Part shown: positions 27,773 through 32,484 of the stretch, piece after piece
Layout: each line of letters begins with the position of its first letter
Position numbering within the stretch: position 1 is the stretch's first letter
NCBI GenBank assembly: GCA_016284175.1
Contig: JAEEOJ010000013.1
Location: 1-49,302, forward strand
DNA from: Lachnospiraceae bacterium
Lineage (GTDB): Bacteria; Bacillota; Clostridia; Lachnospirales; Lachnospiraceae
DNA length: 49,302 nucleotides
Direction of reading: 5' to 3'
Position numbers and translations under genes: made by a program
Notes under the pieces: model-generated
What the model was told of the DNA's origin: nothing
The model's input: the letters and a program-made list of their open reading frames with translations, nothing else
The model's database searches: none

Positions 27773-27812
27773 TTTATATGTCCCATTTATTGGACATGTA
27801 ATTTGATACAAT
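27773..27812. repeat. Palindromic element, copy 1 (upstream of GNAT gene)
   Basis: Starts right after the 27772 stop: TTTATATGTCC, then an 18-bp palindrome TGTCCCATTTATTGGACA (27779-27796, one mismatch between arms), then GTAATTTGATACAAT. The last nine bases include an extended -10 match TG-A-TACAAT (27804-27812). Copy 2 lies at 28363-28400. Confidence 0.6.
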
Positions 27813-28362: not shown

Positions 28363-28402
28363 TTATATGTCCAATTTATTGGACAGGTAAATTTTATTAC
28401 AA
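28363..28402. repeat. Palindromic element, copy 2 (upstream of rsmG)
   Basis: TTTATATGTCC, perfect 18-bp palindrome TGTCCAATTTATTGGACA (28368-28385), then GGTAAATTTTATTACAAC. Matches copy 1 over nearly 40 bp, with the differences in the loop, one arm base and the tail. Confidence 0.6.
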
Positions 28403-28419: not shown

Positions 28420-29133
28420 ATGGAACAGTTTTTTAACGATCTCAAAGAATGGAATATTGAAATATCCGACGAGCAGTTAAATCTCTTTGAAAGATTTACC
28501 GCTCTTCTTCTTGAGTGGAATGAAAAGATTAATTTAACTGCCATAACAGATTTAAGTGATATATATAAGAAACATTATCTTGATTCTTTATCACTGATAA
28601 AATGTATCGATGATTTGGGTGATAAAGAATATACCCTGTTAGATCTTGGTACCGGCGCAGGCTTTCCCGGAATACCTTTAAAGATAATGTATCCGAACCT
28701 TAATATTACATTAGTGGATTCATTAAGAAAAAGAGTTGATTATCTTAACCTTGTTATAGATGAATTAGGTCTTGAAAATATAACCGCCATTCATGCAAGA
28801 GCTGAAGTACTTGCACATGATGAAAAATATCGTGAACAGTATGACATAGTTGTATCACGTGCGGTTGCTAATCTTTCCGTATTAAGTGAGTACTGTATTC
28901 CCTTCGTAAAAGTCGGTGGTGTATTTGTATCATATAAGTCCGGTGATTCCAATGAAGAAATTACAGGTGCAGCTAATGCCATAGGAATTCTCGGCGGAAA
29001 GAAAGCAAAAGTTTTTGATTTTATTCTTCCCTCATCTGATTACTCCAGGTGCAATGTTCTTATTGAGAAAAAGAAGAGCACCGAGGACAGATTTCCCCGC
29101 AAAGAAGGTATACCTTCCAAGCGTCCTTTATAA
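28420..29133 (+). CDS. rsmG: 16S rRNA (guanine527-N7)-methyltransferase
   Basis: 237 residues from ATG at 28420. SAM-binding LLDLGTGAGFPGIPL, the VDSLRKRVDYL and SRAVANLSVLSEY segments are family typical. Methylates G527 of 16S rRNA. A TTG at 28408 would add four residues. No strong ribosome site is visible. Usually rsmG is the neighbour of mnmG and parA; here unrelated genes lie on both sides. Confidence 0.95.
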   Translation: MEQFFNDLKEWNIEISDEQLNLFERFTALLLEWNEKINLTAITDLSDIYKKHYLDSLSLIKCIDDLGDKEYTLLDLGTGAGFPGIPLKIMYPNLNITLVDSLRKRVDYLNLVIDELGLENITAIHARAEVLAHDEKYREQYDIVVSRAVANLSVLSEYCIPFVKVGGVFVSYKSGDSNEEITGAANAIGILGGKKAKVFDFILPSSDYSRCNVLIEKKKSTEDRFPRKEGIPSKRPL

Positions 29134-29145
29134 TCTATATATAGT

Positions 29146-29161
29146 TGTTTCACGTGAAACA
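29146..29161. promoter_or_regulatory. parS site 1
   Basis: TGTTTCACGTGAAACA, a perfect 16-bp palindrome and one base from the Bacillus consensus TGTTCCACGTGAAACA. Binding site of ParB. Confidence 0.95.
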
Positions 29162-29195
29162 TTTTTTGATTTATTTTCACATTACAACTATATAA

Positions 29196-29211
29196 TGTTT
29201 CACGTGAAACA
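29196..29211. promoter_or_regulatory. parS site 2
   Basis: TGTTTCACGTGAAACA again, 50 bp after site 1. Confidence 0.95.
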
Positions 29212-29363
29212 TTTCCCCCAACATTTTGATAATTTTGTGAAACAATTTTTTCAGGGTATCTATATATAGTCTGATTACAAACCGTTTTTTATTTTGTTTT
29301 AAATATATTTTTAAAATTATTTCTGTGTGTTATTATGGAATCACTAATATGGGGAGAAAAAAT

Positions 29364-29771
29364 ATGAAGGTAAATTTATGTTCTGCTTGTGATGTTCCGA
29401 AACTTGCGGAGATGAACAAGTATTTAATAGAAGATGAGAAAAGTGACAATCCGATGCAGCTCGTAGAACTTGAACACAGAATGAGTGAGTTTCTGGATAC
29501 GGATTATAATGCTTATTTATTTGTAGAAGAAAATGATGTTGTGGGTTATGCATTAGTCAGAAAACAGGAAGACGGTTTTTACTTAAGGCAGTTTTATATT
29601 GACCGCGATCACAGAAAAAAACATTTCGGAACCGCTGCGTTCAAAGAACTGATCAAGATTCTAAATACAGATAATATCTTTGTCGATGTTTTACCCTGGA
29701 ATGAAAGAGGTCTTTCTTTCTGGAAGAGTCTCGGTTTTAAAGAAGCTGCTATTTCCATGAAGTTAAAGTAA
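29364..29771 (+). CDS. GNAT-family N-acetyltransferase (cassette between parS clusters)
   Basis: 135 residues from ATG at 29364 (GGGGAGA upstream); a longer start at 29325 lacks a ribosome site. GNAT core with acetyl-CoA loop RDHRKKHFGTAAFKEL and C-terminal ERGLSFWKSLGFKEAAI. First gene of a three-gene set that lies between the duplicated parS clusters; the next gene begins 15 bp on. Substrate unknown. Confidence 0.8.
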   Translation: MKVNLCSACDVPKLAEMNKYLIEDEKSDNPMQLVELEHRMSEFLDTDYNAYLFVEENDVVGYALVRKQEDGFYLRQFYIDRDHRKKHFGTAAFKELIKILNTDNIFVDVLPWNERGLSFWKSLGFKEAAISMKLK

Positions 29772-29786
29772 ATTGGAAATTAGGAT

Positions 29787-30143
29787 ATGGTTACAAGAGA
29801 AGATATTTACGTATACGTAAAAGACAATTACAATACCGAGCCGGATTATCCTTTTGAAGATTCTCCAAAGGCCGCTGTTTTAAGACATCGTATCAACAGA
29901 AAATGGTACGGTCTTATAATGGATGTTTCCTATAATACTGTAGGTATTTCCAAAGATGGAATGATCGATATTATAAACATCAAGCTTGATCCGGAAATGA
30001 TTATTCAGCTTTCTTCTCAGAAAGGGTTCTGTCCTGCTTATCACATGAACAAAACTCACTGGATAACCATTGTGCTTGACGGAAGTGTCAGGGATGATGA
30101 GATATTCAATCTCATAGATTTAAGTTACGACCTTACAAAATAG
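29787..30143 (+). CDS. MmcQ/YjbR-like protein
   Basis: 118 residues of the YjbR/MmcQ (CyaY-like fold) family. Key segment AYHMNKTHWITIVLDGSVRDDEIFNLIDLSYDL is characteristic. Sometimes annotated as DNA-binding; function unproven. Weak ribosome site (AATTAGGA). Middle gene of the inserted cassette. Confidence 0.82.
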   Translation: MVTREDIYVYVKDNYNTEPDYPFEDSPKAAVLRHRINRKWYGLIMDVSYNTVGISKDGMIDIINIKLDPEMIIQLSSQKGFCPAYHMNKTHWITIVLDGSVRDDEIFNLIDLSYDLTK

Positions 30144-30158
30144 CGGAGGTTTATCCGT

Positions 30159-30380
30159 ATGTTTGGAAAGAAAAAAAGGAAATCTGAAAATGAAATAGTG
30201 TTTGATTCAGAGAAACAGTATGCTGTAATCCGCAGTTCCATCTGTACAGGAGAAAAAGTTGCAGGTTTTAAGAATTATTCGGACGGACACTTTACCGAAG
30301 TAATGCTTATTAAAAGTAAGAAAGACGAAGAGATTTTTAAGGAAACCTACCATCTCGAAACGGTAAAAACAGAATATTAG
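30159..30380 (+). CDS. Small conserved protein (73 aa) of unknown function
   Basis: 73 residues: basic start MFGKKKRKSE then VIRSSICTGEKVAGFKNYSDGHFTEVMLIKSKKDEEIF. Short proteins of this pattern are common in Lachnospiraceae and are sometimes misnamed as aspartate dehydrogenase-like; no enzyme domain is present here. AGCGGAGG precedes the ATG. Last gene of the cassette. Confidence 0.7.
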   Translation: MFGKKKRKSENEIVFDSEKQYAVIRSSICTGEKVAGFKNYSDGHFTEVMLIKSKKDEEIFKETYHLETVKTEY

Positions 30381-30447
30381 GAGTATGGTAAATACTTCTC
30401 AACAATATCTTGTAATTGATTTTTAAACTTTCATATCTATATATAGT

Positions 30448-30463
30448 TGTTTCACGTGAAACA
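30448..30463. promoter_or_regulatory. parS site 3
   Basis: TGTTTCACGTGAAACA, perfect. Confidence 0.95.
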
Positions 30464-30497
30464 TTTTTTGAGACCAAAATGATAATTGACTATATGA

Positions 30498-30513
30498 TGT
30501 TTCACGTGAAACA
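30498..30513. promoter_or_regulatory. parS site 4
   Basis: TGTTTCACGTGAAACA, perfect, 50 bp after site 3. Confidence 0.95.
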
Positions 30514-30576
30514 TTTTTATACAATATTTTGGGAAAACACGTGAAACAAGAAAAACAATAAGACATATATATAGTA

Positions 30577-30592
30577 TGTTTCATGTGAAACA
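30577..30592. promoter_or_regulatory. parS-like site 5, one mismatch
   Basis: TGTTTCATGTGAAACA: the central CG is TG, which breaks the palindrome at one base. A weaker or no ParB site. Confidence 0.6.
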
Positions 30593-30745
30593 ATTCTTTT
30601 ATGAGAAACTATATATAGATAATTTCAAAACAAAACATTCGAAAAAGAAATAAAATTCGTGATTATTTTAGTAGATAATATATATTAATAATGATATTAT
30701 TTTAAAGTCGGTATTAAAAAAGTCAGATTTATAAGGAGAGTTCAA

Positions 30746-31507
30746 ATGGGAAGAGTTATAGCGATAGCTAATCAAAAAGGTGGTGTCGGCAAAACGACAA
30801 CAGCTATTAATCTGGCAGCGGCAGTTGCAAAAAAAGGCAAAAAAGTACTTTTGATAGATATAGATCCTCAGGGAAATGCAACCAGCGGATTCGGTATAGA
30901 GAAGAATGAAATGGACAATACAGTTTACGAACTGATGCTCGGAGAATGCCCTATTAAGCAGTGCATCATTCCCGATGTTTGTGAAAATCTTTCTCTCATT
31001 CCCTCAAATGTAAATCTCGCAGCTGCAGAGATTGAACTTATCGATGTAGACAGAAAAGAATTCATTTTGAAGAACGAAGTGGACTGGATAAAGGATCAGT
31101 ATGATTATGTTTTCATCGACTGTCCTCCTTCACTCTCCATGCTTACAATAAATGCAATGACAACAGCAGAGAGTGTACTTGTTCCGATTCAGTGTGAATT
31201 TTATGCAATGGAAGGTTTGAGCCAGTTAATCCATACAGTCAATCTTGTAAAACAAAGATTAAATCCGGTTCTTGCCATGGAAGGTGTTGTATTTACAATG
31301 TACGATTCCAGAACCAACCTTTCACAGGATGTTGTCGACAGTGTTAAGGAAAGACTGGAAGAGAGAATTTTCGAAACAACAATTCCGAGAAATGTAAGAC
31401 TTGCAGAAGCACCCAGTTACGGACAGCCGATTATCGAATACGATCCGAAATCTGCGGGTGCCGAAAGCTACAATAAACTGGCAGACGAACTGATTAATAT
31501 CAGATAA
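30746..31507 (+). CDS. parA: Chromosome partitioning ATPase ParA/Soj
   Basis: 253 residues. Deviant Walker A KGGVGKTT at 11-18, DPQGN switch I, and FIDCPPSLSMLT Walker B. Cytoplasmic ATPase that with ParB moves origins apart and regulates DnaA in Bacillus. AAGGAGAG precedes the ATG. First gene after parS cluster B. Confidence 0.96.
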   Translation: MGRVIAIANQKGGVGKTTTAINLAAAVAKKGKKVLLIDIDPQGNATSGFGIEKNEMDNTVYELMLGECPIKQCIIPDVCENLSLIPSNVNLAAAEIELIDVDRKEFILKNEVDWIKDQYDYVFIDCPPSLSMLTINAMTTAESVLVPIQCEFYAMEGLSQLIHTVNLVKQRLNPVLAMEGVVFTMYDSRTNLSQDVVDSVKERLEERIFETTIPRNVRLAEAPSYGQPIIEYDPKSAGAESYNKLADELINIR

Positions 31508-31584: not shown

Positions 31585-32484
31585 ATGGCCGGTCTTAACA
31601 AAGATAAAGGAAAAGCAACAAAAAGAGCAGGGTTAAATAAGACTAGAGGACTTGATACATTAATCAAGGCAAATGTCGAAGAAGCAGAGGTTAATGCAAA
31701 GTACAAAAACAGCATCGTTATGATGAACCTTTCAAAGGTTGTACCTAACAAATCTCAGCCTCGTAAAAACTTTAACGAGGATGCTTTAAACGAACTCGCT
31801 GATTCAATTAAAGAACACGGAATCATCGAGCCGCTTATTGTTCAGGACAGAAAAGACCATTATGAAATAATCGCCGGTGAAAGAAGATGGAGAGCTGCCA
31901 ATATTGCAGGTCTTACAGAAGTTCCCATCATCATCAAGGATCTTACGGAGCAGCAGATAGTTGAAATCGCACTCATTGAAAATATTCAGAGAGAAGATTT
32001 AAATCCCATCGAAGAGGCTCACGCTTACAGAAGACTGATTGAAGAGTTCAATCTTAAGCAGGACGAAGTAGCGGATAAGGTTTCAAAGAGCCGTACTGCA
32101 ATCACCAATACAATGAGACTTTTAAAGCTTTGTCCCGAAGTTCAGCAGATGTTAATCGATGAAATGATTTCCGAAGGACATGCGAGAGCTTTACTTGGAA
32201 TAGAAAATGCTCAGGTTCAGGCCGATCTTGCACAGCAGGCATTCGATCAGAAGATGAGCGTTCGAGAGATTGAAAAACTTGTAAGAAATATCGGCAAAGA
32301 AAAGAAAGCGAGAGCACAGAAAAACGAGCAGATTTCCATAGCTTACAAGGAATACGAAAACAAATTAAAAGAAAAACTCGGAACAAAGGTTAATATCAAC
32401 CTTAAGGAAAACGGTTCCGGTAAAATCGAAATTGAATTCTATTCAAACGATGATTTCGAAAGAATCATTGACTGCATAAAATAA
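31585..32484 (+). CDS. parB: ParB/Spo0J partition protein
   Basis: 299 residues. N-terminal ParB domain with CTP-binding GERRWRAA and the arginine patch, central helix-turn-helix (KQDEVADKVSKSRTAITNTMRLLKL) that reads parS, and C-terminal dimer domain. It binds the parS sites 1-4 immediately upstream and spreads, loading SMC. GGGGGAAG precedes the ATG. 77 bp after parA, probably one transcript. Confidence 0.96.
   Translation: MAGLNKDKGKATKRAGLNKTRGLDTLIKANVEEAEVNAKYKNSIVMMNLSKVVPNKSQPRKNFNEDALNELADSIKEHGIIEPLIVQDRKDHYEIIAGERRWRAANIAGLTEVPIIIKDLTEQQIVEIALIENIQREDLNPIEEAHAYRRLIEEFNLKQDEVADKVSKSRTAITNTMRLLKLCPEVQQMLIDEMISEGHARALLGIENAQVQADLAQQAFDQKMSVREIEKLVRNIGKEKKARAQKNEQISIAYKEYENKLKEKLGTKVNINLKENGSGKIEIEFYSNDDFERIIDCIK

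Follow-up and report, generated by a model that had tools for sequence, protein, structure and literature searches.

In a 49,302-bp stretch of contig JAEEOJ010000013.1 from a Lachnospiraceae bacterium (assembly GCA_016284175.1; the whole stretch is referred to here as the window), we identified by Pfam the genes rsmG, parA, and parB and found two clusters of the centromere site parS between rsmG and parA, cluster A at 29135-29269 and cluster B at 30437-30618. In both clusters, parS sites alternate with copies of a short palindrome that is conserved across the genus and matches the operators of nrdD in related genomes, and the genome encodes NrdR, a nucleotide-sensing repressor of ribonucleotide reductase (RNR) operons. 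Judged from sequence, the region is probably a composite centromere, in which parS, bound by ParB, would alternate with candidate NrdR boxes that would place ParB under control dependent on deoxyadenosine triphosphate (dATP).

The identification of parS is firm. The window contains four exact copies of the 16-bp site (TGTTTCACGTGAAACA) and a fifth with one mismatch (Table 1), and none of 100 shuffled windows reached five matches with up to three mismatches. Throughout the 2.54-Mb assembly, every parS copy with at most one mismatch falls in this region, and one extra parS-like site with two mismatches lies on a different contig. As in chromosomal ParABS systems, these canonical sites adjoin parA and a parB whose product contains ParB_N and HTH_ParB domains; the genes preceding rsmG, parA, and parB we take, from reading the sequence by eye, to be mnmE and mnmG. 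We regard the locus as an origin-proximal chromosomal centromere, with predicted ParB occupancy forming part of the composite array that we consider probable. A first-pass annotation made from the letters alone had pointed out that the clusters begin with the same 37 bp (29133-29169 and 30435-30471), that each contains two perfect parS sites exactly 50 bp apart, and that each has a half parS farther on (GTGAAACA in both). These observations stand, with the addition that cluster B has a third parS at 30577.

The same annotation had interpreted the palindrome CTATATATAG as a border of the arrays and the repeated ACTATATxATG strings as spacers. Instead, the palindrome is degenerate (CWANATNTWG), with CTATATATAG as one of its forms, and its copies are interspersed with parS. 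Besides the four exact copies at 29135, 29260, 30437, and 30609, more box copies occur within the clusters (29219, 30522, and 30565) and just outside them (30403), and the palindrome is also present in relatives with a single array, which led us to reject the border hypothesis. The ACTATATxATG strings, which abut parS, are weak forms of this palindrome as well. Of the five exact copies of CTATATATAG in the genome, four lie at these clusters. Because CTATATATAG read backwards, our control, likewise has five copies in the genome, the unusual property of CTATATATAG is its clustering and not its number. At parS2 of each cluster, a weak box on the left and a further box on the right straddle the parS site, 31 bp apart centre to centre in cluster A (29188 and 29219) and 32 bp apart in cluster B (30490 and 30522). 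This spacing falls within the ranges that we used for NrdR box pairs (30-33 or 40-43 bp centre to centre), with the left box being a one-mismatch copy.

The palindrome also occurs at nrdD promoters of the genus, where pairs of it spaced 31-32 bp apart shortly precede TTGAC. We fetched 30 nrdD loci and scanned 25, leaving out L125-L129 as too short (loci and genomes are cited by our own L and G labels); 21 of the 25 passed a filter for the pair plus TTGAC. In six other array-bearing genera, a pair that scores at least 24 of 32 against the consensus is present at 24 of 30 nrdD loci, a count for which the chance level was not computed. The NrdR box, defined in a 2005 paper as cited by PMC4409342, is given the consensus acaCwAtATaTwGtg in PMC9736018, which prints one extra aT, and is described in PMC9110341 as having GC pairs conserved at positions 9 and 18. 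The array boxes have the palindromic core C.A.AT.T.G with C and G nine bases apart. NrdR is described as preferring boxes 15-16 bp apart, and spacings of 14-17 or 24-27 bp were bound by all four proteins tested in that account (PMC12051234). L114-L120, L122, and L123 also have an extra strict box, CAATATCTTG, which precedes the nrdD operator pair by about 155 bp and apparently lies within the coding end of the preceding gene.

A matrix built only from nrdD operators picked out the parS arrays. It was derived from 31 training sites, two of which score below 4 bits and are probably wrong picks; L104 contributed to it because this locus passed the looser filter despite a pair score below 24. The two top matches of this matrix in the 49-kb window are in the parS region, the 16-mer CAACAATATCTTGTAA at 30400 and a 16-mer at 30519, and the 16-mer at 29185, at the weak left box of cluster A, ranks sixth. 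We then applied the matrix to 20 genus loci, a set that did not include the window itself and from which L034, L035, L036, L037, L051, and L055 were dropped. Scores of at least 12 bits were reached at 23 of 7,020 array positions versus 0 of 193,624 positions elsewhere. The best match lay in the array in 16 of the 20 loci, with arrays making up 4% of the sequence; column-permuted matrices averaged 2.1 of 20 loci, and 1 of 200 reached 16.

A cognate protein that could bind such boxes is encoded. We found a single nrdR in 30 of 31 genus genomes, and the NrdR of this genome (L095) has D15, R17, R12, R26-29, and R37, the residues that PMC9110341 describes as contacting DNA, so that the DNA contacts of the Zn ribbon are encoded. 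The nrdR loci are nearly devoid of strict boxes (one somewhere in 4 of 30), giving no sign of autoregulation there. Since the array lies between rsmG and parA and not at an RNR promoter, we did not class it as an RNR operator. There is good support for the earlier suggestion that CTATATATAG binds another factor, and NrdR is the leading candidate for that factor given the nrdD operators, the matrix test, and the de novo motif ranking described below.

To follow the palindrome across the genus, we used a sample of 31 genomes, 25 with a parA match, and located arrays by parS alone. Variants such as CAAGATATTG, CTATATTTAG, and CAATATTTTG were read between parS sites in the sequence around the parA matches. 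Of 32 arrays listed, 24 non-redundant ones were counted after near-identical G014, G003, G005, G012, and G006 were dropped; G021, whose array is cut by a contig end, was left out of the set. An exhaustive search of palindromic 10-mers in these 24 arrays, with parS and half sites masked, ranked CWANATNTWG first, with 70 copies observed versus 0.83 expected from a first-order Markov model. All 32 arrays contain at least one strict copy, so that CTATATATAG, whose absence from relatives would have spoken against the earlier note, persists there in degenerate form. About 20 bp past parS2, 27 of the 32 arrays have a strict box, four a one-mismatch box, and one (G018) none.

Measured from parS1, the typical order is a box at -48, a box at -14, parS at 0, a weak box at +39, parS at +50, a box at +71, half parS at +89, a weak box at +114, parS at +128, and a box at +157, with many arrays lacking some of these elements. 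In some arrays (G008, G017, the two of G029, and one of the two from G009), parS1 and parS2 stand closer together, 38-39 bp apart, which is shorter by 11-12 bp or about one helical turn. Boxes are better conserved than spacers, with mean pairwise identities of 0.96 versus 0.70 in cluster A (6 genomes) and 0.88 versus 0.56 in cluster B (7 genomes). Box-to-parS distances are constant in the genus although the distance from parS2 to the parA start changes, from 234 bp (G015) through 780-800 bp (G005, G007, and G008) to 1,543 bp for cluster A of the window and 3,116-3,194 bp for the first G009 array. In four species (L037, L038, L039, and L040), array B and parA are separated by about 540 bp of extra sequence, which seems to include a small gene, and the array layout is retained. 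In a sister subclade (L045, L046, L048, L049, and L057), TATCCACA and TTATCCACA strings, which we take to resemble DnaA boxes, lie between the parS array and parA.

Beyond the genus, parS followed after 7-9 bp by the box was found in 28 of 392 genomes of the order, and a scrambled box in none of them. All 28 belong to the same family (28 of 131 genomes, versus 0 of 261 in others), and the pattern is near universal in two genera (15 of 17 and 7 of 10 sampled genomes). A scan of named genomes gave at least 119 stretches, of which 80 loci were listed. Among these 80 listed matches, 68 have titles naming Lachnospiraceae, Butyrivibrio, or Acetatifactor, including Butyrivibrio hungatei DSM 14810, Acetatifactor muris DSM 23669, and Lachnospiraceae bacterium GAM79, so that boxes stand beside parS in other Lachnospiraceae as well. 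The other 12 have other names or none (e.g., Spirochaetales, Mogibacterium, and a Bacillus metagenome-assembled genome), and some of these, without the rest of the grammar, may be chance matches. Of the 80 listed matches, 57 are followed on the same strand by a parA homologue no more than 2.5 kb away; in 7 a homologue is on the other strand, in 1 it lies farther off, and in 15 none was found in the stretch. Because these loci were selected by the right-hand box, its distance is uninformative there, and the unselected left-hand half-box carries the information: in 52 of 82 sites it lies directly against parS2, at exactly -8, versus 0.9% background. That position is 31-33 bp from the right box, which gives the pair across parS2 the classical NrdR spacing. 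In many arrays (e.g., L189, L198, and L201), a half parS was seen about 41 bp after parS2, and a second one often occurs near +64 or +73 in the listed loci. These half sites stand at fixed places, and ParB may use them.

These arrangements suggest how the array could operate. NrdR loaded with adenosine triphosphate (ATP) and dATP is described as binding as a tetramer that kinks the DNA by close to 90 degrees at either box and turns it sharply through 180 degrees (PMC9110341), and at the parS site of plasmid P1, IHF is described as bending DNA by 180 degrees and promoting ParB binding (PMC5016525). When dATP is high, ATP- and dATP-loaded NrdR tetramers would occupy the two boxes that straddle parS2, and the DNA would kink at both boxes and turn back on itself. 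The parS2 site might then be either occluded or, by analogy with IHF at P1 parS, presented in a bent partition complex. Exclusion of ParB is conceivable because the left box and parS2 share base pairs. Upon a drop in dATP, NrdR would leave and ParB would load differently. As NrdR binds at high dATP, the nucleotide pool would set the state of the array and thereby tune ParB loading at the origin.

Several observations weigh against a composite centromere that contains NrdR. Five of the 25 scanned nrdD loci of the genus (L101-L104 and L124) and 6 of the 30 in other genera score below 24 and have no clear pair. With the nrdD matrix, three of the six top matches in the window fall outside the array, CTATATATAG itself has only a modest rank in the window, and the best match lies outside the array in 4 of the 20 genus loci. 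Several boxes differ from the core by one mismatch, and neighbouring boxes other than the parS2 pair are 34, 43, 44, and 53 bp apart, of which 34 and 44 are outside the best NrdR spacings. The flanks agree with acaC...Gtgt only in part: in the named set we observed A at -3 in 57%, C at -2 in 71%, A or C at -1 in 90%, T at +1 in 77%, A (54%) or G (34%) at +2, and at +3, where the consensus is T, A in 65%, and only 19% of the genus set has C at -2. The helical-phase statistic of the boxes is moderate (R 0.53 at 10.5 bp), for which reason our claim on spacing extends only to the pair at 31-32 bp and the shift of 11-12 bp. Most genomes of the family lack the parS-box pattern, as do all 261 from outside the family and, for the strict form, one of the two genus members in the 392-genome sample. 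Finally, the sequences are related, so that the enrichment figures overstate independence and the counts do not represent independent events.

The main rival explanation is that the boxes are NrdR operators for parAB or for genes flanking the array, with the overlap with parS a by-product of lying upstream of parA; occupying promoters is how NrdR works. We consider this unlikely, yet clearly ahead of the other alternatives. It has a precedent in topA, described as a non-RNR target of NrdR in Pseudomonas aeruginosa (PMC4409342), and it accommodates both the frequent downstream parA on the same strand noted above and a promoter-like TAGATA-17-TATTAT at 30672-30700, between array B and parA. However, promoter-like sites in the region are at chance level (11 found versus 8.3 expected), and cluster A retains its boxes though other genes separate it from parA. 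Within the genus, the distance from parS2 to parA ranges from 234 to 1,543 bp while box-to-parS distances stay fixed, and this constancy speaks for a role at parS over the less probable one as a parA operator. It is less likely again that a different protein, such as a nucleoid or segregation factor, binds the array through a site that resembles an NrdR box. The genus array boxes without strong ACA...TGT flanks and the preference of the window copies for CTATATATAG would fit such a protein, but the same core occupies the nrdD operators of the same genomes, nrdD operators of another genus (L300 and L301) also pair a weak box 32 bp from a strong one, and a matrix from nrdD alone picks out the arrays.

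The fixed spacing of boxes to parS and half parS is also what would be seen if ParB itself read the box as an accessory element, as with the B-box hexamers of P1 parS. This we hold to be very improbable, since the same element is found at nrdD promoters, no parS was seen in the upstream sequences of those genes, and ParB has an ordinary domain set. Least credible of all is that the motif is a functionless by-product of AT-rich DNA around parS. Although the arrays are AT-rich and the backwards palindrome is as frequent in the genome as CTATATATAG, this idea is in substance refuted by the excess over the Markov expectation (70 versus 0.83), the scrambled-box control (0 of 392 versus 28 of 392), and the better conservation of boxes than of spacers, and we rejected it. 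A composite array of parS and candidate NrdR boxes remains the reading that we prefer.

The first-pass annotation had proposed that the parS array was duplicated around an inserted three-gene cassette, the clusters being too alike to have arisen independently. Double arrays were found in G000, G014, G003, G005, G007, and G009, and also in G026 and G029, where the arrays are split over two contigs of the assembly. All eight genomes fall inside one 11-row group of a midpoint-rooted ParA tree, a group with support of 90/80 that is not among the best-supported forks and also includes single-array G016 and G008 as well as G021, which was counted as single with its contig ending before a possible cluster A. 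Deeper branches have one array, and parsimony requires four changes for the double array with G021 labelled single. The duplication is supported, is confined to one subclade, and looks derived, likely through one gain with losses. The argument from likeness is weaker than proposed, as the resemblance of the clusters partly reflects the grammar shared by the whole genus.

The cassette itself proved to be ordinary variable filler, and we rejected the idea of a unique cassette: its contents differ among relatives, with YjbR missing between the clusters of G003, G005, and G007, and Pfam assigns ordinary GNAT and YjbR domains to its genes. In the branches outside the 11-row group, a tblastn search of the interval from rsmG to parA turned up no homologue of the three cassette genes. 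Upstream of the region, near-identical 18-bp inverted repeats, TGTCCCATTTATTGGACA and TGTCCAATTTATTGGACA, lie at 27779-27796 and 28368-28385, one upstream of a GNAT-like gene (27880) and the other upstream of rsmG; they are possibly operators of another regulator.

Table 1. Features of the rsmG-parA region, in window coordinates
Feature	Position	Strand	Evidence
Candidate NrdR-type box CTATATATAG, 1 bp before cluster A parS1	29135..29144	.	Exact motif, array comparison
parS A1, exact	29146..29161	.	parS motif search
Weak candidate NrdR-type box CTATATAATG, 2-bp overlap with parS A2	29188..29197	.	nrdD-derived matrix, array comparison
parS A2, exact	29196..29211	.	parS motif search
Candidate NrdR-type box CAACATTTTG, pair partner of 29188	29219..29228	.	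Sequence reading, array comparison
Half parS GTGAAACA, cluster A	29237..29244	+	Sequence reading, array comparison
Candidate NrdR-type box CTATATATAG, cluster A end	29260..29269	.	Exact motif, array comparison
GNAT acetyltransferase between clusters, outside the proposed mechanism	29364..29771	+	Open reading frame list, Pfam
YjbR-family protein between clusters, variable in relatives	29787..30143	+	Open reading frame list, Pfam
73-aa protein, no Pfam match	30159..30380	+	Open reading frame list, Pfam
Candidate NrdR-type box CAATATCTTG	30403..30412	.	nrdD-derived matrix
Candidate NrdR-type box CTATATATAG, 1 bp before parS B1	30437..30446	.	Exact motif, array comparison
parS B1, exact	30448..30463	.	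parS motif search
Weak candidate NrdR-type box CTATATGATG, 2-bp overlap with parS B2	30490..30499	.	Array comparison
parS B2, exact	30498..30513	.	parS motif search
Candidate NrdR-type box CAATATTTTG	30522..30531	.	nrdD-derived matrix, array comparison
Half parS GTGAAACA, cluster B	30541..30548	+	Sequence reading, array comparison
Weak candidate NrdR-type box ATATATATAG, 2 bp before parS B3	30565..30574	.	Motif search, array comparison
parS B3 TGTTTCATGTGAAACA, 1 mismatch	30577..30592	.	parS motif search
Candidate NrdR-type box CTATATATAG, cluster B end	30609..30618	.	Exact motif, array comparison
parA	30746..31507	+	Open reading frame list, Pfam
parB; ParB N-terminal, HTH, and C-terminal domains	31585..32484	+	Open reading frame list, Pfam

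The array combines features of systems that are known separately. With the NrdR regulon of RNR operons it shares the core C.A.AT.T.G, pairing with 31-32 bp between box centres, and one NrdR per genome, but the boxes here number several per parS array, overlap parS, and lie away from an RNR promoter. With chromosomal ParABS centromeres near oriC it shares the 16-bp parS, adjacent parA and parB, and a position beside rsmG, whereas parS and half sites here stand in a fixed grammar with the candidate boxes of a second protein. ParB of P. aeruginosa is described as binding half parS sites, many and genome-wide, and ParB of Bacillus subtilis, in the same account, was not seen to bind them (PMC10419367); half sites are present here too, at fixed places beside parS. 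A further likeness is to P1 parS, where the site of a DNA-bending regulator is built into the centromere (PMC5016525), as is predicted here for NrdR. This is an analogy only, as P1 parS belongs to a plasmid and uses IHF with A- and B-boxes, and the array described here would join chromosomal parS to a nucleotide-sensing repressor. Among the papers listed by searches of an open-access library, we found no report linking NrdR to parS, ParB, parA or parAB, or a centromere, and none of an NrdR link in work on parS sites in Lachnospiraceae.

The interleaving of parS with NrdR-like sites in many gut and rumen Lachnospiraceae suggests a link between nucleotide supply and chromosome segregation. More tentatively, and with rather less confidence than we place in the composite array itself, NrdR may belong to the structure of the centromere across much of the family and act there as its nucleotide sensor; dATP-loaded NrdR on the parS2 box pair would switch the loading of ParB, and the level of deoxynucleoside triphosphates would thereby gate segregation. 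To our knowledge, how nucleotide supply and replication are coupled to origin segregation in bacteria is an open question. If the composite array is real, dATP-sensor sites at fixed spacing to parS would be a direct, testable connection between the nucleotide pool and segregation and would parallel, on a chromosome, the IHF-parS complex of plasmid P1, and the NrdR regulon would extend past RNR genes in a major family of the gut and rumen.

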